From the NCBI GenBank assembly GCA_037481935.1, contig JBBFKQ010000006.1, forward strand, positions 1-64,000: a stretch of DNA of 64,000 nucleotides. Reading direction: 5' to 3'. Made by a program: the position numbers and the translations under genes. Below, in pieces: positions 32,048-54,346 of the stretch; position 1 is the stretch's first letter, and every line of letters starts with the position of its first letter. Source of the stretch: Aquificaceae bacterium (GTDB lineage: Bacteria; Aquificota; Aquificia; Aquificales; Aquificaceae). The notes under the pieces are model-generated. The model had not been told where the DNA came from and ran no database searches. It was given only the letters and a program-made list of their open reading frames with translations.

Positions 32048-32503
32048 AAAGCTCAGCCACAGCACATTGCTGGCAAGGTGAAGAAGGAATGCAAAGCCCA
32101 GAGATCTTGTCTTCTGGTATACGTATCCATAAAAGAGTGAAGGGAAAAAGGTAAGCACTGACCAGATGTCTGTGTAGAGAATAATGTGTGGAAGGGCAAA
32201 AAGAACTGAAACTGCAAGGTTTGAAAACCTCTGCATAAGATAGGCTCTGAAGAAAAGCTCTTCTGCAAAAGCCTGAAGAGCAAGGCTGAAAAAACCCTGA
32301 GGGTAAAGAATATACAGAAATGGCAGTAAAAGAAGACTTGCATTCCACCTACTCCTCAGTCCAAACCTTTCAGAGGGCAGAAAGGCAAGGGGAAGGAGAA
32401 GAAGGGCGGTGCTCAGGTTTGGGAAACCGTATAACCTGTGAAGGGTCAGGTTTATAAGAAGAAGTCCATAAAGTAAAAGCTCAGTAGACCCTTTTATAGA
32501 CAA
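32018..32503 (-). CDS. CPBP-family intramembrane glutamic protease, candidate sorting protease
   Basis: 161-residue polytopic membrane protein with the CPBP/Abi motifs: E81-E82-x3-R86 ('EELFFR'), H106 ('LFALPH') and H142-x3-N146 ('HLASN'), in hydrophobic segments. The fold is that of Rce1 and of the myxosortases that process MYXO-CTERM-type tails. It overlaps gspK by 23 bp at the end of the gspE-L-M-K run, so it is made together with secretion proteins. Two window proteins carry a Cys-containing C-terminal signal of the type such proteases cut (see findings). Other CPBP roles, such as prenyl-protein processing or immunity-type functions, remain possible. Confidence 0.78.
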   Translation of the reverse strand: MSIKGSTELLLYGLLLINLTLHRLYGFPNLSTALLLLPLAFLPSERFGLRSRWNASLLLLPFLYILYPQGFFSLALQAFAEELFFRAYLMQRFSNLAVSVLFALPHIILYTDIWSVLTFFPSLFYGYVYQKTRSLGFAFLLHLASNVLWLSFLIPYVHGGH

Positions 32504-36323: not shown

Positions 36324-38195
36324 ATGTGGCTTTTGATTTTCTTTTTATTGAGCTTTGCTCTGGGAGGGGAGCTAAAGGTTCTCTATCACGATGGCAGGGT
36401 GGGCGTGGTTTCAGAGCAGGCTCTGAAAAGTCTCAAGTCTCAGCTTGTATACACAGAAAAGCCCAAGAGGCTATGGCTAAAGGATGAAATACTCAGGAGT
36501 TCCTCCATTGGCATATGGGTCAGGGGCTCAAAAAGCTACAGCCTTCCAGTGAGGGCAGGACAGACCATAGGCTTTTCCACCATAAACGCATCGGTGAGCT
36601 TTTCAGGTCCCTGCTCCCAGTCTGGCAATATCCTCAGCTGTTTTTCTGACGGAAGCCTTAACATAAGCGCCAGCTCCTCCGATGGCAGGCTTTTGCTCTG
36701 GAGTGAGACCCATCCTTTAAGCCTTCTGCCAGACTCTTACTGGCTTGGCACATCTGCGAGGCTCTCTGGCAGGACGGGGAGGGGTGTGCTGGCGGTAGTA
36801 GTGGACACGGGTATAGACCTGTGCCATCCCGAGTTTGAAGACAGGATAGTGCTTTTTTATGATGCAACCTCTGGGCTGGAGCTGGACCAGAACGCCATAA
36901 GACAGAGGCGTCAGTCTGGAGACTGCGACTACGACTTTGGGGGGCACGGCACTGCGGTTGCTGGAGTGCTGGCGGGCAAAAACGGCATTGCACCCGGGGC
37001 CAGCATAGTGGCGGTAAAAGTTGTTAGTTCTATAGGCGCCATTGACGACGCCACCGTAATGAGGGCACTTGAATACATAAAAAGCAAAAGACAACAGCTT
37101 GGTATGCCCATGGTGGTGAACATATCCCTTGGCAATACCCTTGGACCTGCCGACGGCACCTCACTCCTTGACCTTTTCATAGACCAGAACTCTGGTCCTG
37201 GAACCATCGTAGTAGCTGCCGCAGGAAACGAGGGACACCTGCCCTTAAGGGCGGTCATTCAGGAGGCTACTTTTGTGAGCGTTCCCGTCAGCCTTAGCCC
37301 TGGCATACCCTTTGAGGTCTGGTATGGAGGAAGTTCTTCTTATCGGGTGGAGCTCTGCGACAGCTCTGGAAGGTGTGCAGTCTCTCAGAGGGGCAGTCCT
37401 CCGACCCTTAACCTGTCCTGCGTCAACTCCATAACCCACCAGAGTTATCCTCTCAATGGAAAGGTCTATGTGGAGTTTGACCACAACTGCTCTGGAAGCT
37501 ATACTCTCAAGCTCACACTCACCTCAGGTGGTCCCTCAAGAGTGGACCTCTTTGGAGGTTTTGAGGGCAACTCCTTTGGAGCCTACACGGTCTCTGACGG
37601 ACAAGGTGGATACCTCTACACAGTTGCCCAGCCGGCTACCGCAAGGAGGGCTATAGCGGTGGGTGCCTTTACCTCAAAGGCTCTCAGTAGTGGCTCTCCA
37701 GCCTTCAACAGCCTTGGAATGCTTGCCTTTTTCTCTTCGAGGGGTCCCACCGTGGACGGAAGGACAAAGCCAGACATAAGCGCAGGGGGTTATGTGGTAT
37801 ATGTGCCGCAGGAAATGGGGGGTTATGCCTATGAGGCGGGCACCTCCTTCTCTACACCTGCAGTGGCGGGGCTTGTTGCCCTCATGCTGGAAGCAAACCC
37901 GAGCCTTATCCCAGAACAGGCGAAGGAGCTTCTCTGTCAGAACGCCCTGAGGGACTCAGCAGTGGGCAGTGTGCCTAACAACTTCTTTGGCTGTGGAAAG
38001 GCACAGGCGGTCATGAGCGTCTCCCCCGGTTCTGGAGGTCAGACACCACCCTCTGGTGGCACTCTCACAACTTCTGGCGGGGGTGGGGGTTGCAGCACTG
38101 GCTCTGCTCAGTATCTGTGGGTGTATGGCTTTGTTGCCCTACTGCTTGTCCTCAGAAGGTTCAAGGGCAAGCCTGACCGCATGGAGGGCGCTTGA
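36324..38195 (+). CDS. Secreted subtilase (S8) with [10 protein letters not shown]-terminal sorting signal
   Basis: 623-residue serine protease. A signal peptide is followed by a propeptide region, then the catalytic triad: Asp161 ('VVVDTGID'), His208 ('[13 protein letters not shown]') and Ser508 ('[11 protein letters not shown]'), with the oxyanion Asn in 'VAAAGNEG'. A beta-sandwich insert lies between Asn and Ser. After a Gly/Thr/Ser linker the tail is GGGGGCSTG (Cys590), a hydrophobic helix '[14 protein letters not shown]' and RRFKGK, with seven more residues. This is a tripartite anchor signal, so the mature enzyme is probably attached to the cell surface. It overlaps the convergent second subtilase by 57 bp. 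Confidence 0.9.
38077..38175 (+). other. C-terminal sorting signal (Cys-CTERM type) of subtilase 1
   Basis: This stretch codes the GGGGG-C-STG block, the hydrophobic stretch and the RRFKGK basic end. The same order and nearly the same residues end the protein encoded at 55767-57479. The layout equals MYXO-CTERM/Synergist-CTERM-type signals with an invariant Cys (family knowledge). Confidence 0.7.
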
Positions 38196-40409: not shown

Positions 40410-40835
40410 ATGGATCTGTCTCTCTGCTTCCAGCAGGCATCTGAAGTTTATGACATTCCCAAGAAGTTGATGGTGGTCATAGCTTATGTGGAGAGTGGTC
40501 TGAACCCGAAGGCATATAACAGAAACAAAAATGGAACTTACGACATAGGAATAATGCAGGTTAACTCATCCAATATCCCCTTGCTAATGAGAAAAGGCAT
40601 TATAGGAGGAGAACAGGACCTGTGGCATCCCTGTAAAAACATAATGGCAGGTGGATACATCTTGCGAGAGTGTATTCTAAAAAACGGAGTAAGCTGGAAG
40701 GCTGTAGACTGTTACAACAAGGGGAAAAATGCCAGAGAGACCAGCAAGTATGTCTGGAAAGTATACAGGACCCTCGAAATGGTAAACCTTTACGCTTCAG
40801 GGAGAAACTCTGAGGTTACAGGAAACGAGTTTTAG
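40410..40835 (+). CDS. Lytic transglycosylase (SLT domain)
   Basis: 141 residues of the SLT/IagB-VirB1 type: 'CFQQASEVYDIPKKLMVVIAYVESGLNP' (key catalytic Glu in V-E-S at about 29, written from residues 6-33 in the gene), 'DIGIMQVNSSNI' and 'AVDCYNKGK'. Such enzymes open peptidoglycan for secretion machines. No signal peptide is visible from ATG 40410, so export is unexplained, or the true start is missed. It overlaps the convergent PilO/GspM-like gene by 39 bp. Confidence 0.85.
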   Translation: MDLSLCFQQASEVYDIPKKLMVVIAYVESGLNPKAYNRNKNGTYDIGIMQVNSSNIPLLMRKGIIGGEQDLWHPCKNIMAGGYILRECILKNGVSWKAVDCYNKGKNARETSKYVWKVYRTLEMVNLYASGRNSEVTGNEF

Positions 40836-41369
40836 ATTTACCAGTAGGGTTACGGGGTTATTTGGGTCTTCAACCTTTATCTCAAGTGATTCTACAAGAA
40901 CGTTGCCTGACTTTTCCATCTTTTCAAGAAAAAGCAAAAAAGGTTTTATATCCACTATCCTTCCACTTATATTCATAGTGAAAATATCCACATCGCCATA
41001 AGTTTCTGTTGCAGGTTCCTGTAAGTTTAGATTCATGTTTTGAGTTTCCGAAGATACCATCTGGAAAAACTTTGATTTTGCCTCTTCCGAATTTTTTTCC
41101 CTAAAACATATCCTCGTAGCTTCTTCAGTTCTTTCCCGTAGTGCCTTCAACTCCTCCTTTAACCTTGGGATTTCTTCTACACGTTCTCTGTATCTCCTGA
41201 GAAGTTCCTTTTTTTCTTTGTGCTCTTCTTTGAGCTTGTTTATGTGCTCCATGTATGGTCTGTAGCCAAGGGCTATTATAAGAAAGATTATGATTAATGG
41301 ACCAGGCAAGATAAGCGCCTGTCTCCTGTATTTTGCAAGTCTCCTCAGATTTTCTCCGATTGGCTTCAT
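40797..41369 (-). CDS. PilO/GspM-like inner-membrane protein
   Basis: 190 residues: a short cytoplasmic N-terminus, one transmembrane helix (about 19-37, 'LILPGPLIIIFLIIALGY'), a coiled coil (about 40-90) and a ferredoxin-like domain ('FTMNISGRIVDIKPFLLFLEKM'), the PilO/GspM architecture. It follows the secretin gene with an ATGA overlap. Together with the GspM-like protein at 33326-33718 this is a second member of the class in the window. Confidence 0.7.
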   Translation of the reverse strand: MKPIGENLRRLAKYRRQALILPGPLIIIFLIIALGYRPYMEHINKLKEEHKEKKELLRRYRERVEEIPRLKEELKALRERTEEATRICFREKNSEEAKSKFFQMVSSETQNMNLNLQEPATETYGDVDIFTMNISGRIVDIKPFLLFLEKMEKSGNVLVESLEIKVEDPNNPVTLLVNLKLVSCNLRVSP

Positions 41370-43453
41370 TCTTCTCTTATAAGCTCTCTCAGTTTTCTGG
41401 TCTTTTCAAGAAATTCTCCCTTGTAGGTTGTATTTTCCGCAGGTGTGTTTATCACATTTGCCTTTATTAACACTATTAGCTCCGTGTTGGATGTGCTTTC
41501 CTTTTGATTTCTGAAAAGAATGCCCAGTCCCGGTATATCAGATAGAAGAGGGACACCGCTCGTGTCCTTTGTTGTCCTGCTCTGTATTATTCCCCCGAGC
41601 AGGGCCACCTGATTACCATCGGTTATAAGTGTAGTGGAAGAAGACCTCTTGGTAATTATGGGAGACTGAAGCTGAGGAGTTATGGTGTTGGAAACTGCAT
41701 CGCTTACCTCCTGATATATCCTGAGTGTCACCCTGTTATCAGTGCTTATGGTGGGGACCACCCTGAGGATTATGCCGGTGTTTCTGTATTGAACCTGATT
41801 CTGAACGCTTGGAAGACCTCCTGTGCTTACAGCCAGCTGTTGACTGAGGATAGGCACTTCTGCACCAACCTGTATGGTGGCTTCTTCGTTGTCCCTGACT
41901 ATAATATGCGGTGCTGAAAGCACCCTTACAGAAGTTTTTGTTGATAGAAAATTAAGTATTGCCCTTAAATCTCCAGCGTTGTTAAAAATGGCTACATTCA
42001 AACCCTGCAGGTTCTGGGCATTTGGAATGAGCCCAAAGGATGTGGATATGTTGAACATCTTGCTGTCTATAAAGCCTTTTATAAGACCTTCAAAGCCAAG
42101 CTGAAGGGAATCACCTAGAGATACCTCAGCCACAACCATCTCAATGAGCACCTGCCTGGGGACCCTGTCAAGCTCCGAAAGAAGGGCCTTGATAACCTGA
42201 TGTTGTAGAGGCGTAGCCCTTACTATAAGTGAGTTGCTCTTTGGGTCTGCTATTATGTTGCCAAAGGTTGTCAGCTTTTCCTCTTTTCTCTCTTCCCTTA
42301 TGGTTGTAGGTTCAGCGGGTCGTTGAAGCTGCTGAGCGGGTTGCTGAGCTGGCTGCTGTTCCTGAGCCTGTCTCTGAGGTGTTCTTGCTCTTGTCTCGGC
42401 AGGAGTTTCCACTCTTTCTGGCTGTGCCTGCTGTTGAGTTCTTTGCTCACTCGCAACTTTCTCTGTAGTTGTTGTTATGGTGAGGGTTTCCTGAAGAAGA
42501 GCCAGACTGGATATTATCTCAGCAACTGTCTTTGCCTCCACAAAGTTGAGCCTGTATATGGCAACCTCCTGTCTTTCTCTCTTTGAGTATTCTTCTATTA
42601 TCCTGACCCAACCCTTTATCTCCTCAAAGAGGTTCTTGTCGGAGGACACTACCACAAGAAGTCCCTCCCTCCTCAGGGCCTCCACCACCTGTGGTGTGTC
42701 CGCCTTTCCAAGGAGCCTAAGTATCTTCTCAAGGCTTTCCTTAACCTGCTCCGGCGGAAGGGCTGTTCTTATGAAAGCTATATTCGTGGAGCTATAGAGA
42801 GAGCTGTCCACGCCCTGAATAAGACCTCTTATTCTTGCTATCCTGGCCCCTTCATCTATGACTACAATCGCCTGTCCGCTTACAAAGGACTTACCTATAG
42901 GAGAAAGAAGCCCCTTTATGGCTTCGTTGAGTGTCTGTGGGGCTATGTAGGTAGGTCTGTAGACCAGAAAGCCGAGCCCCTGAGCTGTAGTAGCCTTCTG
43001 AGGAACCACCCTAAGAACTCTGTCTTCTTTTAACACCCCATAGCCAGCCATCTCTAAAAGGCTCTTTACATACTCATAGGCTTCTTCTTTTGATATCTTG
43101 TCTGCATGAATGGTAACCCTTTGAGTAAGCTCTGCAGGTGCCACGTAGGAAAGCCCAAGTATCTTGTAGAAGACCTCATTCAGAAGCTCCTGAAGGCTTA
43201 TGTCCTCAAAGTGGAGGGAGATTTTTCCACCCTTCTGGATTTCTTTTTCTTCAGCAGCCTCTCTCGCAGGCTTTTCATAAACCACTGGATTGACCTTTTC
43301 CTCTCTCTCTGACTTTAATTCGCTGATGGATGTTTGAGGCACTTCCTCCTGTTTCTGGATTTTTTCAGTTTTTATGGTGTAATGCTCCTGAACTACCTGA
43401 CCGCATGAAAAGACCATTATGGCTACTGTGCAAAAAATGGCTATACTTTTCAT
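41366..43453 (-). CDS. gspD: Secretin GspD with its own lipobox
   Basis: 695-residue outer-membrane channel. The N-terminal signal ends in a lipobox ('IMVFSC', Cys16), so the secretin appears to be a lipoprotein itself. Then come N0 ('SLHFEDISLQELLNEVFYKI'), N1-N3 domains (about 150-410) with a Q/P/A/R-rich, probably disordered insertion (about 335-380), and the secretin core with 'VGAEVPILSQQ' and 'VPLLSDIPGLGILFR' (about 635-650). The final blocks fit GspD better than PilQ. It has a normal Shine-Dalgarno, with TATAAT 15 nt upstream of the ATG. Confidence 0.88.
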   Translation of the reverse strand: MKSIAIFCTVAIMVFSCGQVVQEHYTIKTEKIQKQEEVPQTSISELKSEREEKVNPVVYEKPAREAAEEKEIQKGGKISLHFEDISLQELLNEVFYKILGLSYVAPAELTQRVTIHADKISKEEAYEYVKSLLEMAGYGVLKEDRVLRVVPQKATTAQGLGFLVYRPTYIAPQTLNEAIKGLLSPIGKSFVSGQAIVVIDEGARIARIRGLIQGVDSSLYSSTNIAFIRTALPPEQVKESLEKILRLLGKADTPQVVEALRREGLLVVVSSDKNLFEEIKGWVRIIEEYSKRERQEVAIYRLNFVEAKTVAEIISSLALLQETLTITTTTEKVASEQRTQQQAQPERVETPAETRARTPQRQAQEQQPAQQPAQQLQRPAEPTTIREERKEEKLTTFGNIIADPKSNSLIVRATPLQHQVIKALLSELDRVPRQVLIEMVVAEVSLGDSLQLGFEGLIKGFIDSKMFNISTSFGLIPNAQNLQGLNVAIFNNAGDLRAILNFLSTKTSVRVLSAPHIIVRDNEEATIQVGAEVPILSQQLAVSTGGLPSVQNQVQYRNTGIILRVVPTISTDNRVTLRIYQEVSDAVSNTITPQLQSPIITKRSSSTTLITDGNQVALLGGIIQSRTTKDTSGVPLLSDIPGLGILFRNQKESTSNTELIVLIKANVINTPAENTTYKGEFLEKTRKLRELIREE

Positions 43454-43503: not shown

Positions 43504-44517
43504 TCATTGACATGGATAGAGACATTCTCCAGTTTTTCTGTAATGCAATAAGGTTCTCAATGTGTACTCCACATCCCTTTTTATGCTTTCTTCAGAGTTG
43601 TATGCATTATGCGGTGTTATTATCACGTTGGGGAATTTTGCTATATCATTGATTATCTGAATTTTGGAGGGGCTATCGCTTGACTTCCCTCTTATAAAAT
43701 AACTCTCGCCCTCAAAACAATCCAGAGCACAGCCTGCTATTATGCCATTTCTTAGTCCTTCATAGATAGCCTCAAGTTCTATGAGCCCTCCTCTTGCAGT
43801 GTTAACTATGTATACACCAGGTTTTACAATTCTCAGAGAACCTCTGTTGAAGATATAGCGGGTTTTTTCAGACAGGGACAGGTGAAAGGTCAATACATCC
43901 GCTGACCTGTATAGCTCTTCAAGGTCAACATACCTTATTCCGAGCCCTTCAAGCTCCTCTTTCCTTCTGAAACTCCAGTAGAAGACCTTAGCACCAAGGC
44001 ATTTTAAAAGCTTTGCTACTGTTGTGCCCACCAGGCCAGTGCCCACAACCCCCACAATCTTACCATGGAGGTCTGCGCCAGTTTCCCTTTCAAACCTTCC
44101 CTTCTGCACTTTCAGTATAGTACTTTTCAGCTTTCTCAACAGTGAAAAAATAAGAGATATGGTGTATTCAGCGGTTGATATGGTGCTGTAACCTCTTATG
44201 GAGCATACCTTTATACCCTTATTATTACAATATTCTAAATTTATGTGTTCACAGCCGGTTGATCTCGTAACTATGAGCTGAAGACGCTTAAAGTTGTCAA
44301 TAATATACTTATCAATGGTTGTGTTTACAGAAGAGAAAACTATGACGTCTATAGCATCCTTCCATTCAAGATTTATAATCTCTCGGTTATCAAGAGACAG
44401 TTTGGTGCCATACACGTAAAATCCTTCTGTCTCAAGGTTTTTTAATATCTCTAAATCTTCCCCGTAAATATTTAGCCATAAGACATTTAGACCGCCCTTC
44501 TGCTCATCCTTCGGCAT
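43504..44517 (-). CDS. D-isomer-specific 2-hydroxyacid dehydrogenase
   Basis: 337 residues. NAD-binding 'GVVGTGLVGTTVAKLL' is at about 156-171. The catalytic residues are Arg in 'NTARGGLIE', Glu in 'DCFEGE' and His in 'TPHNAYN'. The helical elements resemble D-lactate dehydrogenase. It reduces a 2-keto acid or oxidises a D-2-hydroxy acid in the cytoplasm. Its start lies inside the preceding ATP-grasp gene (14-bp overlap), so the two act together. AT-rich compared with the core genes. Confidence 0.87.
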   Translation of the reverse strand: MPKDEQKGGLNVLWLNIYGEDLEILKNLETEGFYVYGTKLSLDNREIINLEWKDAIDVIVFSSVNTTIDKYIIDNFKRLQLIVTRSTGCEHINLEYCNNKGIKVCSIRGYSTISTAEYTISLIFSLLRKLKSTILKVQKGRFERETGADLHGKIVGVVGTGLVGTTVAKLLKCLGAKVFYWSFRRKEELEGLGIRYVDLEELYRSADVLTFHLSLSEKTRYIFNRGSLRIVKPGVYIVNTARGGLIELEAIYEGLRNGIIAGCALDCFEGESYFIRGKSSDSPSKIQIINDIAKFPNVIITPHNAYNSEESIKRDVEYTLRTLLHYRKTGECLYPCQ

Positions 44518-45511
44518 TTTTGAATATCAGTTCTCTAACGGCTTTCTTTATAGATGTGACAAAGGGTGCCTGGTAAGAGTATTTTGGATCCGTTCCCGAA
44601 TATGCCTGGTATTTAAAACAGGGTGAAGCTTCAAACAAAACTATACTACCGTCCTGTAAAATGCCAAAATCTACGATAAATACGTCTAATTTTATTCTCT
44701 TGTAAATTTCTACAAGAGGTTTATACTCCTTTCCATCAAAACACTCTAACCATTTCCTTTCCTCATGCCTATACTTTTCGTACTTATCCATAACTCTTTC
44801 TCTATCCCTGCCGTGAATATTCCAATAATCAGAGACTATCATTGTCCTCGGGTATAGTTTGCCATCAATAATGAATACTCTATATTTCCTGTATAGACCG
44901 TCCTTGGACTTATAGTCTACAAACTTTACGAGGTAATATTCCTCTCCTCTGAAAGGATACCTCTCAAGCAAACTTACATCTTTGTAACTCTTCACAAGGA
45001 CCGCTTCGTGATATGTGTGTACCCCAACCTCCCTGAAAATAAATGGATACATTGCCTCTTTATCCGCAATCTCCTTTATGAATTTTAAGGAATCTGGTTT
45101 TATTCTCAAAACTTTAGGAACTATTAAACCATCAATACCCTTAAGAATTTCGTAGACTGTGTCCCGTGACAGTTTCATAACATACTGAGGATGATTTATT
45201 ATAGGTTTATTAACATTATTTTTCAAAAGTTCTATAGCAGACTTTAAAGCGTTCTTACATATGTCCGGCTCACATATAGCGTTAAAAATTACATTAAACG
45301 GTCTAAAATCTACATATATATTCTCAATATCTAGATCGGTATTTACTAAAAATGGTAGAACAAGAGGGGTTATTTCGAGTCCTTCAATATCTATCCTGTC
45401 TACTGCCTCGGAAACACCGTCAAAATCAAATTCCAATCTGCCAGGTTTGTAGTAGGACACAGTCAGCTTCCTGTCATCTCTTATACACATGATTTTTAAA
45501 ACTTTTATCAT
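44504..45511 (-). CDS. ATP-grasp-like ligase of unknown specificity
   Basis: 335 residues. ATP-grasp traits: 'INHPQYVMKLSRDTVYEIL' (about 100-118), 'YPFIFREVGVHTYHEAVLV' (nucleotide-binding strand, about 153-171), 'YYLVKFVDYKSKDGLYRKYR', 'YPRTMIVSDYWNIHG', and the metal-binding end 'LDVFIVDFGILQDGSIVLFEAS' (D...E-x-S, about 290). The 'FVDY-x-S-x-DG-x-YRKYR' and 'SDxWxxH' blocks are what I recall from ATP-grasp proteins linked to peptide or TPR-protein gene clusters; this is memory, not a search. It is translated with a D-2-hydroxyacid dehydrogenase. Product unknown. Confidence 0.68.
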   Translation of the reverse strand: MIKVLKIMCIRDDRKLTVSYYKPGRLEFDFDGVSEAVDRIDIEGLEITPLVLPFLVNTDLDIENIYVDFRPFNVIFNAICEPDICKNALKSAIELLKNNVNKPIINHPQYVMKLSRDTVYEILKGIDGLIVPKVLRIKPDSLKFIKEIADKEAMYPFIFREVGVHTYHEAVLVKSYKDVSLLERYPFRGEEYYLVKFVDYKSKDGLYRKYRVFIIDGKLYPRTMIVSDYWNIHGRDRERVMDKYEKYRHEERKWLECFDGKEYKPLVEIYKRIKLDVFIVDFGILQDGSIVLFEASPCFKYQAYSGTDPKYSYQAPFVTSIKKAVRELIFKNAEG

Positions 45512-45615: not shown

Positions 45616-46155
45616 ATGGAAAGAGTATATTACCTTACCGATAGGTTCATGGGCTGGTTAGCGGGTAGAGATAGAGTTCTGTATGAGAAGCTAATTAAAC
45701 AGGCTGAAGTTGCAAAGGCTGAAAGGTATGGTGATTCCCTAAGCTTTGAAAGAGGAATTGCTCTAAGGTTTAGGAATGAAGATGATAGCCAGACATTTGG
45801 AGCCATACTGCAAGAAGCAACCCTTCTGTGGGTTAATCAGGAAAACAACTTTGGCTTTCCAGAAATACCTAAGAAAGCCACTTCAGGAGAATATATTTTC
45901 CTTTCTGATAATTTTTTAAGATGGTTACAGTTAAACAAACCGGAGGTAATCAAAGAGATTGAATCGCATATAGAGGACATGGGCATAGATAAGGTAAATT
46001 TTGGAATAAAAAGTTCTCCTCTGGACACTGGCTACTATCTTTTATTTTCCAAAAATGAAGATAGAGAATTAATCGGAGCTATACTGCACAGAGCTGTATT
46101 AGACGCACTTACATACATAAAAGAAACACGTAACACAATTAATTTTAACGTTTAA
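45616..46155 (+). CDS. Twin-domain protein P1, novel family associated with secretion genes
   Basis: 179 residues with no signal peptide or membrane helix. It consists of two divergent copies of an ~80-residue domain: 'YYLTDRFMGWL...AERYGD...GIALRF...FGAILQEA' (about 5-73) and 'YIFLSDNFLRWL...GYYLLFS...IGAILHRAV' (about 92-167). The protein at 53807 has the same length and layout. I do not know the family. It is followed 14 nt later by gspI-K-J on the same strand, suggesting a role in pseudopilus or secretion function. No Shine-Dalgarno is present; TATAAT ends 5 nt before the ATG. Confidence 0.72.
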   Translation: MERVYYLTDRFMGWLAGRDRVLYEKLIKQAEVAKAERYGDSLSFERGIALRFRNEDDSQTFGAILQEATLLWVNQENNFGFPEIPKKATSGEYIFLSDNFLRWLQLNKPEVIKEIESHIEDMGIDKVNFGIKSSPLDTGYYLLFSKNEDRELIGAILHRAVLDALTYIKETRNTINFNV

Positions 46156-46169
46156 AAAGTTGAACGAAT

Positions 46170-46547
46170 ATGCGAGGCTATACTTTAATTGAAATCTTAG
46201 TCGCCTTTTCTATAGCCATTATTGCTATACCCGTTATTTATCAAACCCTTTCAACCCTCAGTTCAAGACTCTACTATCTTGATAAAATTTCCCGTGAGAT
46301 AGATTATCTTCAGAGATACAACAACTCAGTAGTAGGAGAATTGACAAACCAGAGTAGCATTATCAGAAGCTTCTACTTTGAACTTGAAAGCATAAAGGGG
46401 GAATGTGAAGAAAAAGGCTCAGAAGAGAGATATATATCATGTCCATACAAGGACTTTTCGCCCCTTAATCCTTATCTCGATACACCAGTTGACGGTGTAA
46501 GAGTCATAGTTTTTAGCAGTGGTTTTTATTTCTTAATACCAAAATGA
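46170..46547 (+). CDS. gspI: Minor pseudopilin, GspI-like
   Basis: 125 residues. Prepilin leader MRG is followed by YTLIEILVAFSIAIIA (Glu at +5 after cleavage), the class III signal processed by GspO/PilD. The short body with an early 'LSSRLYYLDKISREIDYL' helix fits GspI or PilV-like tips. It overlaps gspK2 by 4 bp. Confidence 0.8.
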   Translation: MRGYTLIEILVAFSIAIIAIPVIYQTLSTLSSRLYYLDKISREIDYLQRYNNSVVGELTNQSSIIRSFYFELESIKGECEEKGSEERYISCPYKDFSPLNPYLDTPVDGVRVIVFSSGFYFLIPK

Positions 46548-47305
46548 AGCACAAAAAAAGTGGGTTTGTCACGATTTATGTCTTATGGATGATGAGTGCA
46601 ATGTTTGTTATTCTATTCGTTGCATCTGCTTCAGTTCAGAACATTTATCTTGGAGAGAGTAGAGACAGGGATAAATTGGCTTTCACTTTTGAATCACAGG
46701 CAGTTGCACGCATTGCACTCTGGAAATTGTTGAACAGCTATCCACCTACCTACGCAGGAATACTCACTCTACCATATGAGATGGAGCTAAAGGTAATGAA
46801 TAGAGTTTACAATGTTAGAATTGAAGCAGAGGATTCGAAAGTGCCGGTAAATCGTCTTAATCTCAATGAACTTATGAACCTCACAGATATTTTTCTTGGT
46901 GATAGGAATAAAGGTAGGCTAATTTTCACTTATTTGCAGCTGAACGGACGCATGAATTCAGTCAATGAGCTATACAACATAATAGGAAGCAATGGATTTG
47001 GTAAGCTCAAAGACCATGTAACTGCATACTCACCACGATTAAATCTCAATTATGCAGATGAAAAATCCATAAGAGTTATCGGATTGGGGAGAGGTGACAT
47101 AGAAGCTATAATTTCTCGAAGAAAAGATGGTGTGGTAAACATAATGGATATAACCAATACATTTAATGAGACAATTCTCTTAAAATATGCAACGTCAACA
47201 CCTAGACCTGCATATTACAGAATAAAAGTCAGGATGGCAAAGCCCTTTTATTCCGAGGCTGAATATATTCTTTCTCCAGACATGCAGATTCTTGATAGAC
47301 TATGA
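46544..47305 (+). CDS. gspK: Minor pseudopilin GspK-like (copy 2)
   Basis: 253 residues with a normal prepilin site (MKHKKSG before FVTIYVLWMMSAM) and GspK body traits: 'VPVNRLNLNELMNLTDIFL', 'LIFTYLQLNGRMNSVNELY' and 'PRLNLNYADEKSIRVIGLG' (the two alpha-domain entries of GspK). It is sandwiched between gspI and gspJ with 4-bp overlaps. It is a second GspK beside the one at 32481-33329. Confidence 0.82.
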   Translation: MKHKKSGFVTIYVLWMMSAMFVILFVASASVQNIYLGESRDRDKLAFTFESQAVARIALWKLLNSYPPTYAGILTLPYEMELKVMNRVYNVRIEAEDSKVPVNRLNLNELMNLTDIFLGDRNKGRLIFTYLQLNGRMNSVNELYNIIGSNGFGKLKDHVTAYSPRLNLNYADEKSIRVIGLGRGDIEAIISRRKDGVVNIMDITNTFNETILLKYATSTPRPAYYRIKVRMAKPFYSEAEYILSPDMQILDRL

Positions 47306-47778
47306 AGGCACAGAAAAAATACGGATTTACCCTCATTGAACTTCTCGTCTCTGTGCTCATAGCCATGTTCCTGTTAACCATGCTTTATGCAACCTTTGGG
47401 AGTCTAACGAGTTTTCAGAGCAGGTGGCTATCCTTAAGGAGAACATACGAAGTGAATGGTTTTTTTACAAAAATACAGGAGCAGATGCTTTTCTGTAGAA
47501 ACTTCAGATTAGTGGAAAACAGAAGTGGCAAAACTCTTGAATACTACACCACGGCGGGTTACACTTCGCCGTATGTAAAGGTAAAAGTAGTTATAAGTTC
47601 AGAAGGTATTGTGTACGAGGAAATAAATCCTGTCAATATGCAGACCCTTTATGAGAAAAGGCTTGATATGAGGGTAGAGAGGATAGAGGCTAATAAAAAC
47701 TATATAGAGATATACGTGAAAGGGCAAAAATTCATTCTGATAGTAAGGGAGGCAAGTAGCCCTCCCTTCCTGTTCTGA
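47302..47778 (+). CDS. gspJ: Minor pseudopilin GspJ-like
   Basis: 158 residues with prepilin leader MKAQKKYG before FTLIELLVSVLIAMFL, then a beta-rich body ('FQSRWLSLRRTYEVNGFFTKIQEQ'). Gene order I-K-J and co-translation support a tip-complex role. It ends 3 bp from the convergent lipoprotein gene. Confidence 0.8.
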   Translation: MKAQKKYGFTLIELLVSVLIAMFLLTMLYATFGSLTSFQSRWLSLRRTYEVNGFFTKIQEQMLFCRNFRLVENRSGKTLEYYTTAGYTSPYVKVKVVISSEGIVYEEINPVNMQTLYEKRLDMRVERIEANKNYIEIYVKGQKFILIVREASSPPFLF

Positions 47779-47781
47779 AAA

Positions 47782-49530
47782 TTACCACCTTATGAAGAAA
47801 TCTCCCACAGGGGCTTCCACTGCATAGTACCAGGAGCCATTTATGTAAAGCCATATGTGGGTAAACTTGTATTTCCTCTCACCTGCCTGTTGTATAGGTT
47901 TACCCATTATTTGCTCAGGTAGCTGGACCGTCATCTCACCCTTAGCTACTGCTAACGGTGTATTTTCTATGAGTTTAACACTATCGTATTTGAATTCCTT
48001 AACCTTTAGATTTAACTGTCTATTCATCTCCTTCTGCCTTTCTAAGGATACAAAAGTTTTGTATCTTGGGTCAAAGTACTTATATATGCACTCTACGTCG
48101 TCCTTTATCTGACACCTTGAAAAGTTTTCAGTAGCTTCCTTTAATGTCTTTTCCATGTCTCTAGATCTGGGTAAGCTGTGGTTTTTGCTTATTTTACTCC
48201 CAAGAACGTCCACTACCTTCATATTCCATCTGTTTTTGTCTCTGTCAAAGTTCTGGAAGAATATTCTGTAGAGGTCTTCCTTTATATGGACTATTTTGGG
48301 AACGCCCAAATTTTCTGAAGGTTTATTGATTAATCCGTTTTTATAAACCTTTCCATCCTTTGTTATATACGCTACCATGAGACTGGGGAATATGTATCTG
48401 TTGTCGGAGTAAACCAAAAAAGTCGCCCCATCAGTTGAGTAAACAGACTGGACCTGTTGAGTGAAAAAGTATTCGGGAACATCATCTGTGAGGGGCACAC
48501 CTTTTCCTTTCTCACTCAGGAATATGTTGGCTCTGGAGCTCACTGGAAAGCCTTCCAGCTTTATGGGTTCCGTCTGGCTTCTGTGGAAAAGAGATCCGTA
48601 GCCATCTTTGAAGGCAAATGGATAGTAATTTGTTCCGTAATAGTACTTCTTTACCTCTTCTGGACTGTAGGAGGCGAGCTTTCGCAGTTTGTCGGGTCCT
48701 TCAATTTTAAATACCTCTATGTTACCTCCCACAGCCGGGTCATACCAGCCTGTAACAATATAGGAATTTTTAGGAAAGCTGTATAGATGATATATTGTCC
48801 TGTTATCACGTTCCAAGAGTGTCCTGTCTTCCCTTCTGTCTACAAGATAGGATTTGATAAAATCCTTACCACCAGACATGGCATAGATGATGTAAAAACC
48901 AGCCCCCTCCGCATAAGCTGGCATGAACTTTTCGTATAGTGTTTGCCCTTGGAAATGTATAAACTCTTCCTTTTCAGGGACTTTTTCCCCGTAGTTTTCA
49001 AGAACCAGGTAGGCGATGGAGTATCCCACGAGATGTTCATCATACCAGGCAAGAAGCAGTCTCCCTTTTCCATCTGTTGCCATGTGGGCGGGGCTGAGAG
49101 CCTGCTTTGTGGTAGAGAAGTATCTGGTCAGTATCTTTCCATCCTTGAGGTCGTATCTTGTAAACACAACCTGCTTATCGTTGGCTTCCTTTATCCAGTA
49201 AGACACATACAGATACTTCCCATCGTAAAGGTAGGAGAGCCTGCCATAGATTGCTCTTGGATGCTCTTTTACCACATCCTCGTTTATTACCACGTCCCTG
49301 CCATCCACCCAGAGGTGTATCCTGCCGGTAGGGTCGTAATAGAGAAAGGCAATTCTGTCTTCTGAATTCATTTCTCTAATGGGTTCATACTGGGAATCAT
49401 CAAACCTTATGGGGATTTCTATGGTCCTTATCTCTTTCTCCGACTTGATAAAAGACTGAGCCTTTCTTTCACAGGAAAGGAAGCCGAGACCAATCAAAAC
49501 CACAGAGAAAAATAAAAACAACCGTGACAT
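47782..49530 (-). CDS. Large lipoprotein with beta-propeller-like body and NTF2-like C-terminus
   Basis: 582 residues. The signal peptide ends in a lipobox 'LGFLSC' (Cys19). The middle (about 60-420) consists of repeated 'YLYVSYW', 'LLLAWYDE', 'FYIIYAMSGG' and 'TFLVYSDNR' strands, compatible with a beta-propeller of fewer than seven clear blades. The end (about 450-580: 'LKEATENFSRCQIKDDVECIY', 'RKYKFTHIWLYINGSWYYAVEA') looks like an NTF2/SnoaL-like fold. Function unknown; surface or periplasmic lipoprotein. The Shine-Dalgarno AAGGAG precedes the ATG. Confidence 0.65.
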   Translation of the reverse strand: MSRLFLFFSVVLIGLGFLSCERKAQSFIKSEKEIRTIEIPIRFDDSQYEPIREMNSEDRIAFLYYDPTGRIHLWVDGRDVVINEDVVKEHPRAIYGRLSYLYDGKYLYVSYWIKEANDKQVVFTRYDLKDGKILTRYFSTTKQALSPAHMATDGKGRLLLAWYDEHLVGYSIAYLVLENYGEKVPEKEEFIHFQGQTLYEKFMPAYAEGAGFYIIYAMSGGKDFIKSYLVDRREDRTLLERDNRTIYHLYSFPKNSYIVTGWYDPAVGGNIEVFKIEGPDKLRKLASYSPEEVKKYYYGTNYYPFAFKDGYGSLFHRSQTEPIKLEGFPVSSRANIFLSEKGKGVPLTDDVPEYFFTQQVQSVYSTDGATFLVYSDNRYIFPSLMVAYITKDGKVYKNGLINKPSENLGVPKIVHIKEDLYRIFFQNFDRDKNRWNMKVVDVLGSKISKNHSLPRSRDMEKTLKEATENFSRCQIKDDVECIYKYFDPRYKTFVSLERQKEMNRQLNLKVKEFKYDSVKLIENTPLAVAKGEMTVQLPEQIMGKPIQQAGERKYKFTHIWLYINGSWYYAVEAPVGDFFIRW

Positions 49531-49557
49531 CTTTTCTCCTTCACCTTTTGTTGAAGA

Positions 49558-49574
49558 GGCGGGCAGAGCCCGCC
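49558..49574 (-). terminator. Terminator-like hairpin after the abundant secreted-protein gene
   Basis: On the reverse strand GGCGGGC-TCT-GCCCGCC (7-bp stem, TCT loop) lies 10 nt after the stop of the 49585-50802 gene, followed by TCTTCAAC. The U tract is weak, so termination may be partial and allow read-through into the 582-residue lipoprotein gene. Confidence 0.55.
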
Positions 49575-49584
49575 ACGGGATAGA

Positions 49585-50802
49585 TTATCTGATATAGATG
49601 AGCTGATGGAGAGGTGTTATGGCAAAGCCGTAGGCGGGGTTTACTTCCACTTTGAAGGCTATGATGCCGTCTCCAAGCTCAGCAGCCCTGTTTTCTTGGG
49701 GCAGGGTGTTGCACGCTGCAGGAGTGCCGGCAGGATCTTGACAGTATGCCACTGGCCTGAGGTTAAACCATGCACCATGTCTCCTTATGACGGGGTCAAG
49801 TGGAACAAGACCGGGTGTTCCCTCTTCGGAGGCAGCCCTTATCTCTGCTGCACACCTGAAGTCTATGGTTCTCACAGCAGACAGCCTCTGCTCGTCACGC
49901 AGGTAGTAACCCTGTATTGGGTTGCCGGGTATGAAGTCGTTGTTTCTTCCCTCTGTTATTGCGGTGAGCCTTATGGCAGCGGCGTAGTTTACACTGCTGA
50001 AGTTGACCGTGGAGCCGGGCTGATTGTTATTACTACCGGGATTAAAGCGGTCTCGATTGACGGCTATGGCGTAGACGAATGTGTCGGCAACGTCAGTAGG
50101 AAGGAAAGCAAAGTATCCAACGTTAGGAGCGGAATCGGTGTTGGCATATCTGTGATCCACAGGTTCCGTAGTGCCAACAGTTGCCGCTATCGTGTTGTGG
50201 TTACCTCCTCCTGCTTCCCAGAGCTCTCTCACATCGCCAAAGCCTCTATGGTGCATCTCTATTGCCCTTTGGGAGTAGAGGAATCTGGATGTGAGATTAA
50301 AGACGATCGCCTCTGCGGCGAGGGTCTGGCAGTTGGCAGTGGTGCCTTCAGTAGCATCGCAGTCTTCCACTGTTATGGGCTGTGTAGAAGCCACGTTTTC
50401 AAGGACTGCAAAGCCCTGCATGGGTATGCCAGGGTCGTATCCACCGCCCACAGTTCCTATGAGACCGCCCTCAAATATGGGTGGCTTTGGAACGGGGGAT
50501 ACGGTGGCATCCACTATGAAGGTGGTGAGGTCGTTTGTGGAGGATGGAACAAGCAGGTTCCTCTCAGAGCAGGCAGTCATGGCTGGTGCCAGGCTGGACT
50601 TGAACTGATAGGTTATGTGGACGCCGGGTGCACCCAGGACGTTAGGAAGACTGGGTGTAGTTGTTATGTAGGACAGAACGGTTACCCACCCACCTCCAGA
50701 CTTAATGGCGGGTATCATCACCGCAGATGCCTTTGCCTGCTGGCTGGCACCAAAGAGTGCCATTGCTGTCAGAGCTGAGGCTGCGATAGCCTTCTTCTTC
50801 AT
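49585..50802 (-). CDS. Secreted protein of unknown function, probably abundant
   Basis: 405 residues: a classic signal peptide ('KKKAIAASALTAMALFGASQQAKA', cut near residue 26, given here by its parts), then a Ser/Thr/Gly/Asn-rich mature protein with scattered Cys pairs ('EDCDATEG..NCQTL', 'YCQDPAGTPAACN') typical of extracytoplasmic beta-rich proteins. No C-terminal sorting motif. A consensus promoter and strong Shine-Dalgarno (AAGGAGG) suggest high expression. Candidate surface-layer protein or type II substrate (inference). Confidence 0.72.
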   Translation of the reverse strand: MKKKAIAASALTAMALFGASQQAKASAVMIPAIKSGGGWVTVLSYITTTPSLPNVLGAPGVHITYQFKSSLAPAMTACSERNLLVPSSTNDLTTFIVDATVSPVPKPPIFEGGLIGTVGGGYDPGIPMQGFAVLENVASTQPITVEDCDATEGTTANCQTLAAEAIVFNLTSRFLYSQRAIEMHHRGFGDVRELWEAGGGNHNTIAATVGTTEPVDHRYANTDSAPNVGYFAFLPTDVADTFVYAIAVNRDRFNPGSNNNQPGSTVNFSSVNYAAAIRLTAITEGRNNDFIPGNPIQGYYLRDEQRLSAVRTIDFRCAAEIRAASEEGTPGLVPLDPVIRRHGAWFNLRPVAYCQDPAGTPAACNTLPQENRAAELGDGIIAFKVEVNPAYGFAITPLHQLIYIR

Positions 50803-50945: not shown

Positions 50946-52424
50946 ATGGTATTTGCATGGTTTCTCCTGTTCTTTGTTTTTGTTCTATCCTGTGGAGGGG
51001 GTGGTGAGCCTGTCAGCCTTCAGCTCAGGCTCTCTTCTTCCTCTGAGCCCTATTACACGGGCGTATGGGTCAGGGTTTCAGGAAGGGACTTTGAGCCTGT
51101 TTTCTTGCAGAGGTCAGGAGTTTTCTACCCCGGGGACAGGGTGGTCTTTGAGCTTCAGCTCCCACCGGGCAGGGAAAGGCACATAGAGGCGGTCATACTT
51201 GACCCCAGTGGAAGGCCTGCCTTCTATGGGAGAAGGACCCTTGACCTCTTGGGTGGCGTGGTGGTTATGGATATGCAGGAGAGCTTTCTCAGGGTAAGAC
51301 TGGAGGAGAGGTTTCTGGATAGTGCGGTGCCTGTGGATGGAAGGATACTTTACCTTTTTTCTGAAGACTTTTATAGCCTGAATTACTCCACAGTTTCAGA
51401 GCCCTTCTGGGTTGGCTCCTATTTAGCCTTTCAGGACTCTTCTGGCTGGCGTTTTAACTACCTGCCTGCTCCCGGGGAGTATGCCTTTGCATACTCAGGG
51501 CTTTACGAGATTCCCTTTTCTCTTCCTGAGGGAGAAAGCAGGCTGGAGCTTTATGGCTCCTATGTGGGGGAGCTGGGCAAGGAGGACAAAATCATAAAAA
51601 TTAGCTCAGAGCGTCTGCTCTCTGGGGGCATACCTCTTCTGGCAGGTGTGGGCAGAAGGCTTTACCTTTATGCGGATGGCTCTTTCAAGCCCGCCTGTGA
51701 GCTGTTTGAATGCATATCTCTGAACCTTTCCATCTCAGCACCGGAGCTGGAGAACTACGGACTTTTTGTAAGACCATACGGGCTTGATATCCCCGTGCAG
51801 GAAGGGGAGAGGTTTGTTTTGTTCAGAGGCATTCCCTACTGGCTCAGGCTGGAGGGAAGTGTGAAAACTCCCTGCAGGATGGACTACAGGCTGTGGGTAA
51901 ATCTTGGGGAGAACTTCTCTGGTGAGGCAAAGGTGGAGGTCAGAACGAAGAGGGTAAGGCTTGAGGGCGTCCACCCCAGCGCCCAGATAAGGGTCTATTC
52001 GGAAAACCTTCAGATGGAGGGGCGTTGCGAGAGCTCCGCAAGGGAGGGTCTTGAGGTTCCCTATGCGATGGAAGAAGACCTGTGGGTAGAAGCCAGATAT
52101 CCAGACGGGCTTGTGGTAGGGGTCCTGCTCAGGGCGGGTCAGGAGGCTGTCAATCTGCCAGAAATTGACCTGAAGGTCAGTCTTGAACTTCGGAAGGATA
52201 TTTTGACTTTTAGCTTTGAAAGGGTGGGTTTTGCTGGCTGGTGCTCCCTTGAGCTCTGGGAAGGAGAAAAGAGGGTCCATATTGACCGCATACCGCCATG
52301 GAGAAGTTACATAAAACTCAAAAACACGGGCTACTTCCAGAGAGAGCCAGAATACAGGCTAAGATGCCAGTGGCAAGGTGGCTATGTGGAGAGGAGTTCA
52401 GTCAAGGGCTCTGAGGTTTTTTGA
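50946..52424 (+). CDS. Lipoprotein of unknown function
   Basis: 492 residues. Signal peptide with lipobox 'FVLSC' (Cys16) followed by Gly residues. The body is beta-rich ('GVWVRVSGRDFEPVFL', 'IEAVILDPSGRPAFYG') and looks like several immunoglobulin-like or carboxypeptidase-regulatory-like sandwiches, with five or six Cys in the second half. No family recognised. The last 27 bp overlap the convergent anti-sigma-like gene. Confidence 0.65.
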   Translation: MVFAWFLLFFVFVLSCGGGGEPVSLQLRLSSSSEPYYTGVWVRVSGRDFEPVFLQRSGVFYPGDRVVFELQLPPGRERHIEAVILDPSGRPAFYGRRTLDLLGGVVVMDMQESFLRVRLEERFLDSAVPVDGRILYLFSEDFYSLNYSTVSEPFWVGSYLAFQDSSGWRFNYLPAPGEYAFAYSGLYEIPFSLPEGESRLELYGSYVGELGKEDKIIKISSERLLSGGIPLLAGVGRRLYLYADGSFKPACELFECISLNLSISAPELENYGLFVRPYGLDIPVQEGERFVLFRGIPYWLRLEGSVKTPCRMDYRLWVNLGENFSGEAKVEVRTKRVRLEGVHPSAQIRVYSENLQMEGRCESSAREGLEVPYAMEEDLWVEARYPDGLVVGVLLRAGQEAVNLPEIDLKVSLELRKDILTFSFERVGFAGWCSLELWEGEKRVHIDRIPPWRSYIKLKNTGYFQREPEYRLRCQWQGGYVERSSVKGSEVF

Positions 52425-52781
52425 CTTGCTGAGAAACTCCCTTACCCTACTCTCCTCGCCCTTTAGGATGAACACGTCCCCTTCGTATGGACCTTCAATA
52501 GTGAGCTGATGGCTTCTGAGCTCATCCGAGAGTTTTTTGATGCCTACGTCCTCAACAATTTTTACTGGAATACCGGCGGAGAAGGTCTGATATTCTGTGT
52601 TTTTCAGTGGCTGATAAAAATATAATCCCAAAAGCACCAGCATGAGAAAAGCCTCAAGGACCGCAACCTTGAGGAGCCTTTTTCTTTTTTCCCTTTCCAG
52701 CCTGAGGGCGACCTTGAAGTCCATGGCTTCCGGTGGCTTCAAAGAGCCGTAGTATTCTTCAAAGGCTTTCCTTATGCTCAT
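52398..52781 (-). CDS. Single-pass membrane protein, putative anti-sigma factor
   Basis: 127 residues: a basic cytoplasmic N-terminus (about 1-38), a transmembrane helix (about 39-56, 'VAVLEAFLMLVLLGLYFY') and a small periplasmic domain. It overlaps the ECF sigma gene by 23 bp, the usual place of an anti-sigma factor. The zinc motif H-x3-C-x2-C of ZAS anti-sigma domains is absent, so it would belong to a non-ZAS class. Confidence 0.55.
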   Translation of the reverse strand: MSIRKAFEEYYGSLKPPEAMDFKVALRLEREKRKRLLKVAVLEAFLMLVLLGLYFYQPLKNTEYQTFSAGIPVKIVEDVGIKKLSDELRSHQLTIEGPYEGDVFILKGEESRVREFLSKSKNLRALD

Positions 52782-53298
52782 TTTTAAGCTCCTCCATAGC
52801 CTTCAGCAGCTTTTTCTTTGCGTTAAAGACCCTAGTCTTAACCGTGTTGACGGGCACGCCCAGCACTCTTGCTATTTCCTCGTAGGGCATGTCCTCGTAG
52901 TAGGCAAGATGGAGGACCTCCCTGTGTATGGCCGGTAGTCTGTCAAGAGCCTTTGCTATCAGTTCCACCTCCATGGGTTCTATTTCTTCTTCTACCACCG
53001 CATCCTCTTCTCTTATCTCAAGCATAAATGGGTGCCTCCTGTTTTTCCTTAGCATATTCCTTATCACGTTCCTGCAGATTCCAAAGAGCCATGTGCTTAC
53101 CCTTGAGTCACCTCTGAAGTTCCTGGCTGACCTCCATATCTGATAGAAGGTCTCAGCCACAGCCTCTTCTGCGTCCTCGTAGTTCTGGAGTATTCCGTAG
53201 GCGTAGGAAAAGAGCCTTGAGTTATACATGAGTATGAGGGTCTTCAGTGCCTGCTGGTCGCCTCTTGCAATTCGGGCTATCAACTCCTCCTCTCTCAT
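52759..53298 (-). CDS. ECF sigma factor (RpoE-like)
   Basis: About 179 residues from the chosen start (MREEELIARIARGDQQAL). Sigma region 2 is 'NYEDAEEAVAETFYQIWR..FRGDSRVSTWLFGICRN' (parts, about 47-85), and region 4 is 'PAIHREVLHLAYYEDMPYEEIA' with recognition helix 'GVPVNTVKTRVFNAKKKL'. The frame extends upstream to 53400, but that would overlap gspH and add non-conserved residues. It is likely to control envelope or secretion genes; its own target promoters are not identified. Confidence 0.87.
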   Translation of the reverse strand: MREEELIARIARGDQQALKTLILMYNSRLFSYAYGILQNYEDAEEAVAETFYQIWRSARNFRGDSRVSTWLFGICRNVIRNMLRKNRRHPFMLEIREEDAVVEEEIEPMEVELIAKALDRLPAIHREVLHLAYYEDMPYEEIARVLGVPVNTVKTRVFNAKKKLLKAMEELKNEHKESL

Positions 53299-53353
53299 GA
53301 GAGAGATTTTACTACCTTCTACTGAGTTTGTGTATGAAGAATAGCGTCTGGTT

Positions 53354-53686
53354 TTATAGGTCAAATACCGTATAATACTTTCTCTCTCCCCTCTTCTCAA
53401 ACCAGCAGTATCTCAGTTCTCCGCTGGGGTATGCGTAGCACTGCCCCCTGTAAGGAAGGTCAATGGTCTCACCTTCTGAGTTTTTTATCTTGCTTCCGTC
53501 CCCCGCTATCTCCACTACTTTCCCCTTTTTCATAGACTGGTTTAAGCTCCTCATTAAAAAAGCCCTCAGGACATCTTCTTCCCCAAAGAAGGTCCTGTTT
53601 ATGGCAGGAATGACAAGCGTCAGCGTTAGGGCGGATATGGCAAGGACGATTATCAACTCCAGAAGGCTGAAGCCGTTTGCTTTCAT
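53354..53686 (-). CDS. gspH: Minor pseudopilin, GspH-like
   Basis: 110 residues with prepilin leader MKANG before FSLLELIIVLAISALTL (Glu at +5). The short C-terminal body carries one Cys pair (QCYAYPSGELRYCWF). It lies upstream of the ECF sigma factor gene on the same strand (56 nt). TATAAT ends 9 nt before its ATG with no Shine-Dalgarno. Confidence 0.78.
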   Translation of the reverse strand: MKANGFSLLELIIVLAISALTLTLVIPAINRTFFGEEDVLRAFLMRSLNQSMKKGKVVEIAGDGSKIKNSEGETIDLPYRGQCYAYPSGELRYCWFEKRGERKYYTVFDL

Positions 53687-53806: not shown

Positions 53807-54346
53807 ATGAACACAGTCAACACATCCTACACTTTCTTTGTGAGCGACGACATGAGGGCGTGGCTTCAGACCAACTTTTCTGAGGTTTACTATCAGGCTC
53901 TTAACCTTGCCAGATATGCCAGAGCAGAAAGATACGGAGAGGACAATCCACTTCCCGACGGCACAGCCCTGACCTTTACAGACCCGGTAAAGGCCTTTCA
54001 GTTTCAACAGCTTCTCGAGAGGGCTAATATGGTCTATCTTCAGTCCCTTTCTAAAAATCCTCCCAAAGTGCCGGCCCCTCCTGCCAGCAGCGCCGGCTAC
54101 TTCTACATAACCGACGACCTTAGGTTCTGGGCAAAGGAAAACCTCCCAGATCTCTACAGACAGGCTGAGGAGCTTGTGAAGCAGGACAGAGCAAGCGTTC
54201 AGAGATATGGGGATGGCATGCCCACCTCCAAGGGGCTTCTGATATCCTTCAACGACCCTCAGGGAGCAAGTCAGTTTGAGGAGCTGGTAAAGAGAGCTCT
54301 TCTTTCCATGAACTGGGGAAATAACCTCATGTCTCTTTCTGCCTAA
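53807..54346 (+). CDS. Twin-domain protein P2, paralogue of the 45616 gene
   Basis: 179 residues, soluble, no signal peptide. It has two ~80-residue repeats: 'YTFFVSDDMRAWL...AERYGEDNPLPDGTALTF...FQQLLERA' (about 8-75) and 'YFYITDDLRFWA...QRYGDGMPTSKGLLISF...FEELVKRA' (about 99-170), joined by a Pro/Ala linker. The pattern 'Y-x-x-(T/S)D-x-x-x-x-W' at the start and '(R)YGD...G-x-x-(I/L)-x-F' in the middle recurs in three or four of the four copies. Family unknown. Its stop overlaps the convergent gspE2 by 4 bp. Confidence 0.75.
   Translation: MNTVNTSYTFFVSDDMRAWLQTNFSEVYYQALNLARYARAERYGEDNPLPDGTALTFTDPVKAFQFQQLLERANMVYLQSLSKNPPKVPAPPASSAGYFYITDDLRFWAKENLPDLYRQAEELVKQDRASVQRYGDGMPTSKGLLISFNDPQGASQFEELVKRALLSMNWGNNLMSLSA

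Follow-up and report, generated by a model that had tools for sequence, protein, structure and literature searches.

Two genes, P1 and P2, in the 64,000-nucleotide stretch of DNA that we analysed (the window) encode proteins of a new family in which a predicted KH-like domain occurs twice. The two proteins are homologous, internally duplicated and under purifying selection, and the family is associated with genes of a second T2SS (T2SS-2) in four genomes of two genera (one of them through a remote homologue). We think it quite possible, though somewhat short of probable, that P1 and P2 serve T2SS-2 as accessory adaptors, soluble, acidic and located in the cytoplasm, in which tandem KH folds that lack the GXXG loop bind protein and help to assemble or gate the system.

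P1, P2 and the genes around them

A preliminary description of this DNA had listed P1 and P2 as paralogues of equal length with two copies of one module each, and we found both open reading frames with the following repeats:

45616–46155, + strand: P1, tandem-repeat protein of 179 aa, pI 5.2, opening the gspI2-gspK2-gspJ2 run
45616–45852, + strand: P1 repeat 1, predicted KH-like domain (profile match)
45883–46131, + strand: P1 repeat 2, predicted KH-like domain (profile match), RYGD motif lost
53807–54346, + strand: P2, tandem-repeat protein of 179 aa, pI 5.0
53819–54064, + strand: P2 repeat 1, predicted KH-like domain (profile match)
54089–54328, + strand: P2 repeat 2, predicted KH-like domain, modelled at pLDDT 90.7

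P1 and P2 are homologous with 23% identity across 160 aa (BLASTP, E 2e-14). The duplication of a module of about 80 residues within each protein was equally clear. The N-terminal and C-terminal halves of P2 aligned with a Smith-Waterman score of 136 (z 24) and those of P1 with z 8.4, and in both cases none of 500 shuffles scored as well. We then compared the halves of P1, P2 and their orthologues in genome G009 all against all (eight repeats): the profile of the four N-terminal halves matched that of the four C-terminal halves with an hhalign probability of 98.8% (E 8e-17, 71 columns). The columns that are invariant over the eight repeats are a W and the G preceding the third strand. Thus the W of the motif proposed earlier holds throughout, whereas (R)YGD is not universal: RYGD is present in several repeats, but P2 repeat 1 has RYGE and P1 repeat 2 has NFGI. 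Several repeats have an N-x-P type of link from helix 1 to helix 2.

P1, P2 and the G009 orthologues are acidic (pI 5.0–5.6; 4.4–5.6 for the wider set) and contain no cysteine. We detected no hydrophobic segment in them (maximum Kyte-Doolittle value over 19 residues 0.91), and inspection of P1 and P2 revealed no apparent signal peptide, as had been reported before. Both proteins look cytoplasmic. Between the window genome (G000) and G009 we measured pS 0.78 and pN 0.18 for P2 and pS 0.77 and pN 0.48 for P1, with no internal stops in either gene, which indicates purifying selection.

Parts of two T2SS are interleaved on contig C6 of G000 at 32–36 kb, 40–58 kb and 66–72 kb, with two copies each of gspD, gspE, gspK and gspG. 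The first system comprises gspK/L/E-type genes at 32.5–36.3 kb and gspD, gspC-like, gspG and gspF genes at 66–72 kb. T2SS-2 has its own secretin, gspM-like, gspI2/K2/J2, gspH2 and gspE2 genes, with gspG2 beyond the window at C6:71687; the two secretins were assigned to the two systems by position. The features of the T2SS-2 locus are:

40797–41369, − strand: gspM-like protein, adjoining the gspD-like secretin
41366–43453, − strand: gspD-like secretin, probably of T2SS-2 (another gspD is found outside the window, near C6:66.5–68.5 kb)
46170–46547, + strand: gspI2-like minor pseudopilin, starting 14 bp past P1
46544–47305, + strand: gspK2, the marker for locating T2SS-2 in other genomes
47302–47778, + strand: gspJ2-like pseudopilin
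47782–50802, − strand: 582-aa lipoprotein-like and 405-aa surface-type protein, kept in the T2SS-2 loci of G009 and genus g7
52398–53400, − strand: ECF sigma factor and the membrane protein behind it (anti-sigma-like), kept in the T2SS-2 loci of G009 and g7
53354–53686, − strand: gspH2-like pseudopilin, divergent from P2
53746–53774, + strand: predicted sigma-70-type promoter of P2, TTGACA-N17-TATATT, kept in G009
54343–55821, − strand: gspE2 ATPase, convergent with P2 (4-bp overlap)

As the preliminary description had it, both genes are immediate neighbours of pseudopilin or gspE genes: the gspI2-like gene follows P1, and P2 is flanked by gspE2 and the gspH2-like gene. P2 is oriented opposite to both of these neighbours and forms a transcription unit of its own. 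Its predicted promoter is the sole exact match to TTGACA-N17-TATATT within the window (0.03 expected).

To identify the family we searched P1, P2 and their orthologues with hmmscan against Pfam, NCBIfam and PHROGs, which gave zero significant matches, and with HMMER against the PDB sequences, where no natural family matched significantly. Among the PDB sequences, a low E-value was obtained for a designed repeat protein only; we rejected this match and one to LINE-1 ORF1p, as both cover part of the domain only. The Gsp families (GspC–GspO) showed no sequence match to P1, P2 or their relatives, and P1 and P2 did not match Secretin_N (PF03958). One member matched a pilotin-related model (YacC) at chance level (E 0.083). 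The family is therefore new to all the libraries that we searched (Pfam, NCBIfam, PHROGs and PDB sequences), in keeping with its earlier description as undescribed, and these searches gave no confident sequence match to a known unrelated family.

Some other genes of the window are recorded here for completeness. Between the secretin and P1 there are a D-2-hydroxyacid dehydrogenase and an ATP-grasp gene in tandem (43504–45511, − strand; the latter R2K-like, below the cut-off), and an ATP-grasp-like frame, read by eye, also adjoins the P1 orthologue in G009. A CPBP intramembrane protease gene (32018–32503, − strand) adjoins gspK and matches the myxosortase models Mrt_core (E 3e-13) and MrtJ (E 7e-12), all below the curated cut-offs. 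The C-termini of a subtilase (36324–38195, + strand) and a choice-of-anchor-D protein (55767–57479, − strand) consist of GGGGCSTG, a hydrophobic stretch and a basic tail, an arrangement reminiscent of a MYXO-CTERM-type sorting tag; in Myxococcus MYXO-CTERM proteins pass through a myxosortase and the T2SS (PMC11980579). The mutS gene appears to be split into two overlapping open reading frames (16851–17378 and 17299–19377, + strand, different frames), a frameshift or sequencing error. At 27096–28075 (+ strand) there are two overlapping tandem paralogues of about 163 aa (MKT(I/L)SKEELRELYEKDFPLWAQ...), which we take to be DUF29-like.

Predicted fold and comparison with KH domains

The domain, at first called unrecognised, is predicted to be less featureless than that, as structure prediction, one of the checks proposed at the outset, gave a confident KH-like model of the single domain. 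This AlphaFold2 model of P2 repeat 2 was built with 11 diverse repeats and reached pLDDT 90.7 and pTM 0.79. Its elements are E5-9, H10-19, H21-34, E37-41, E50-54 and H58-81 (beta-alpha-alpha-beta-beta-alpha). The leading PDB matches were type I KH domains with Foldseek probabilities of 0.92–0.98, TM-scores of 0.45–0.60 and E-values of at least 0.03; both the TM-scores and the E-values are borderline and the likeness is by fold only. For the whole of P2 we used its three full-length relatives as the alignment. In the resulting model (pLDDT 79) the order of the elements is equal in both repeats, and the best PDB fold match was the tandem KH protein 2jzx (PCBP2; E 5e-4), with an overall TM-score of 0.26. 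Such a low value can be expected where two domains orient differently.

In the order of their elements the models of P1 and P2 agree with type I KH domains (Pfam KH_1; PCBP2 KH3 2p2r, FUBP1 KH2 6y2d and the PCBP2 tandem 2jzx). They differ from these in having no detectable sequence similarity, in their acidity and in the GXXG loop, which we looked for and found nowhere in P1, P2 or the G009 orthologues. None of the Pfam KH models was matched by P1, P2 or the orthologues up to E 1, nor by P0003 and P0004 up to E 0.1. As the domain has neither the loop nor a match in sequence, we call it KH-like by predicted topology and do not assign it to the KH family. In the literature our searches for KH proteins that lack GXXG turned up nothing helpful.

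The predicted topology could also mean that P1 and P2 regulate the T2SS-2 genes by binding RNA or DNA through their tandem KH domains, and divergent promoters and the ECF sigma/anti-sigma-like pair do adjoin the two genes. We consider this quite improbable. The absence of GXXG together with the acidic pI makes binding of RNA, and of nucleic acid in general, unlikely; further points against a regulator are the lack of a Pfam KH match and the occurrence of a relative of the domain in a virion protein (see below).

A KH-related fold inside a T2SS protein has a precedent in the secretin GspD: its N1 domain and type I KH domains are related in structure (PMC3169554). The N1/N2 domains of GspD are periplasmic parts of the secretin, whereas P1 and P2 show no export signal and no Secretin_N match, and a secretin N domain was absent among the 50 best fold matches listed for the P1/P2 domain.

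Relatives in other genomes and in a prophage

The family is narrow in range. Among 136 genomes of the phylum, full-length relatives of both P1 and P2 were found only in G000 and G009, and in G009 both orthologues occupy the corresponding positions within a T2SS-2 locus that is syntenic over 17 kb. (The public title of the G009 contig, 'Acidobacteria bacterium isolate J001', looks wrong; the genome collection assigns G009 and the window genome to one genus.) Both genes have thus been kept in place although, in the genes that we compared, silent sites have reached or nearly reached saturation between the two genomes. We compared the protein identities between G000 and G009 across the locus and detected the following values: 69% for P2, 80% for GspE2, 75% for the surface protein and 63% for the lipoprotein, and 30% for P1, 30% for GspJ2, 41% for GspK2 and 46% for GspI2. 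These values suggest that P1 has evolved in step with the minor pseudopilins, and P2 in step with the conserved part.

We searched the 136 genomes with an 11-row profile, which gave strong matches only in G000, G009, G021, G028 and a prophage of G080; the rows of the profile include all five carriers, so their scores arise by construction and the informative part is the absence elsewhere. The four cellular carriers all possess T2SS-2 genes. All six cellular genes that we found, spread over four genomes, are immediate neighbours of gsp genes of T2SS-2, a co-occurrence that rests on two genera and was partly found by inspecting the surroundings of gspK2. Relatives of gspK2 are present in G009, four g7 genomes, G028 and G063, and the gspG2 type in G000, g7 and g9. 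Beside T2SS-2-type genes we found no copy of the domain in the g7 genomes G034, G019, G079 and G080 (outside the prophage) or in G063, some of the contigs being short. The domain is hence not essential to such systems, and P1 and P2 are not a T2SS core component (GspC–GspO), given the lack of any Gsp match and their absence from some T2SS-2 genomes. The earlier claim that the family is tied to this secretion system stands for all six cellular copies, but not in the sense of a general component, as the four g7 genomes have no copy.

Several weaker matches were discarded. A match in Kroppenstedtia (L027) is a 45-residue helical match in a small phage-like open reading frame, and one of P0004 in genus g3 (G015, L060) is a hemerythrin-like protein and was rejected as chance. 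The P0004 matches at 16-58 that recur in frames of about 290 aa in many genomes (E 0.01–0.1) probably reflect one conserved unrelated protein. Weak A2/A5 matches in G040, G084, G085 and others were treated as noise, the one in G085 being a TetR-type regulator. In IMG/VR, phages and plasmids no relatives were found with scans sensitive to near relatives only.

The g7 locus (G034 and G080) keeps gspI2/K2/J2 and gspH2 as well as the ECF sigma pair and the genes for both exported proteins, and P1 and P2 are absent from it. This bears on the possibility that P1 and P2 are cytoplasmic chaperones or cargo handlers for the exported surface protein or lipoprotein encoded between them, which we regard as fairly improbable. 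The 582-aa and 405-aa exported proteins do lie between P1 and P2 in both G000 and G009, and P2 has diverged at a rate close to theirs. However, g7 encodes close relatives of both proteins with P1 and P2 absent. T2SS cargo, moreover, normally folds in the periplasm following Sec or Tat export, so that a cytoplasmic cargo chaperone is not expected. In g7 we also noted two Maf-type (Maf_flag10_N and MptE-like) glycosyltransferases, encoded in tandem in the interval that separates gspH2 from the gene for the surface protein (L055:2283-6168 and L054:13428-17337); they may glycosylate this exported protein.

The cellular copies in genus g9 are more distant:

L057:8945-9589 and L081:9400-10134: uncharacterised gspK2-adjacent g9 proteins, putative remote homologues of the repeat

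The proteins have 244 aa in G021 and 214 aa in G028. Their genes are convergent to gspK2 at a distance of 1–3 bp, and in G028 the gene also directly follows gspG2. Against a nine-row profile the g9 pair gave an hhalign probability of 79% and a score of 33.5, compared to a maximum of 20.8 for 150 column-shuffled controls. The g9 orthologues rank first of 3,328 locus ORFs, among ORFs not chosen via the profile itself. In a scan of the whole G021 genome with the repeat profile the g9 gene was the sole match (E 0.23), and this was before the gene itself had drawn our attention. Homology to the P1/P2 repeat is likely on these sequence comparisons. A possible second half-repeat can be seen by eye, while the g9 proteins differ from P1 and P2 by a shorter loop between strands 2 and 3, a low-complexity Gly/Ser/Pro-rich linker and a C-terminal segment. 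If the homology is true, the domain has remained next to gspK2 in two genera even though the locus has been rearranged, and this adjacency would be the strongest argument for a functional connection with T2SS-2.

The fifth carrier is of a different kind. In G080 the genome-wide profile search gave a clear repeat match (E 4e-6) to the N-terminus of a prophage protein:

L038:8933-9871 (G080 C1, 528.9–529.9 kb): prophage virion protein of 312 aa, one P1/P2-type domain followed by a glycine-rich linker

The match was also seen against P2 (BLASTP, E 2e-6) and against the repeat profile (hhalign, 96.5%). The protein shares the homologous repeat with P1 and P2 and differs from them in having a single N-terminal copy, the linker and a further region, and in its phage structural context with portal, major head, tail and internal-virion-type genes. 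In G021 and G090 the rest of this type of virion protein is present, and the domain is not recognisable. The domain is thus not confined to secretion contexts. Mapping the neighbours of all homologues, as had been suggested, gave gsp genes beside every cellular copy and none beside the prophage copy.

The main rival explanation follows from this prophage relative: P1 and P2 may be lineage-specific passengers, perhaps a domesticated phage virion gene, with no role in secretion. We consider this somewhat unlikely. A clear single-copy relative in a virion protein, the lack of the family in other T2SS-2 genomes, and the orientation and predicted promoter of P2 are all in agreement with a passenger. 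Against it, two paralogues have been kept under purifying selection at two gsp positions in two diverged genomes, and the remote homologue again occurs by gspK2 in a second genus, where the locus is rearranged. It is the prophage relative together with the absence from g7 that leaves this explanation some probability.

Proposed role in T2SS-2

If P1 and P2 are instead the T2SS-2 adaptors proposed above, each would carry two KH-fold domains that lack GXXG and contact protein in place of nucleic acid; we infer such protein binding, direct binding to the T2SS included. Judged by gene position and evolutionary rate, P2 would most likely partner the conserved motor side, that is GspE2 and the assembly platform, and P1 the fast-evolving minor pseudopilins GspI2, GspK2 and GspJ2 encoded downstream of it. 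Together the two proteins would then help to assemble or gate T2SS-2. A further conjecture, which we hold to be unlikely, is that a protein-binding domain with a GXXG-less KH fold is common to a phage virion protein of the ejection type and to cytoplasmic T2SS-2 regulators, and would be a machine-docking module exchanged between phage and secretion motor.

The T2SS is usually described by a fixed set of Gsp parts. In one survey the T2SS of Aquificae were recognised only via relaxed models (PMC6668835). We see in P1 and P2 a new accessory variant of a machine of known type, the possible link to phage being its most unusual feature. As both proteins are small, apparently soluble and free of cysteine, their structure and partners should be easy to test. 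If they do act on the motor or on the pseudopilin tip, they would constitute a lineage-specific cytoplasmic control layer of the T2SS and a use of the tandem KH fold free of nucleic acid.
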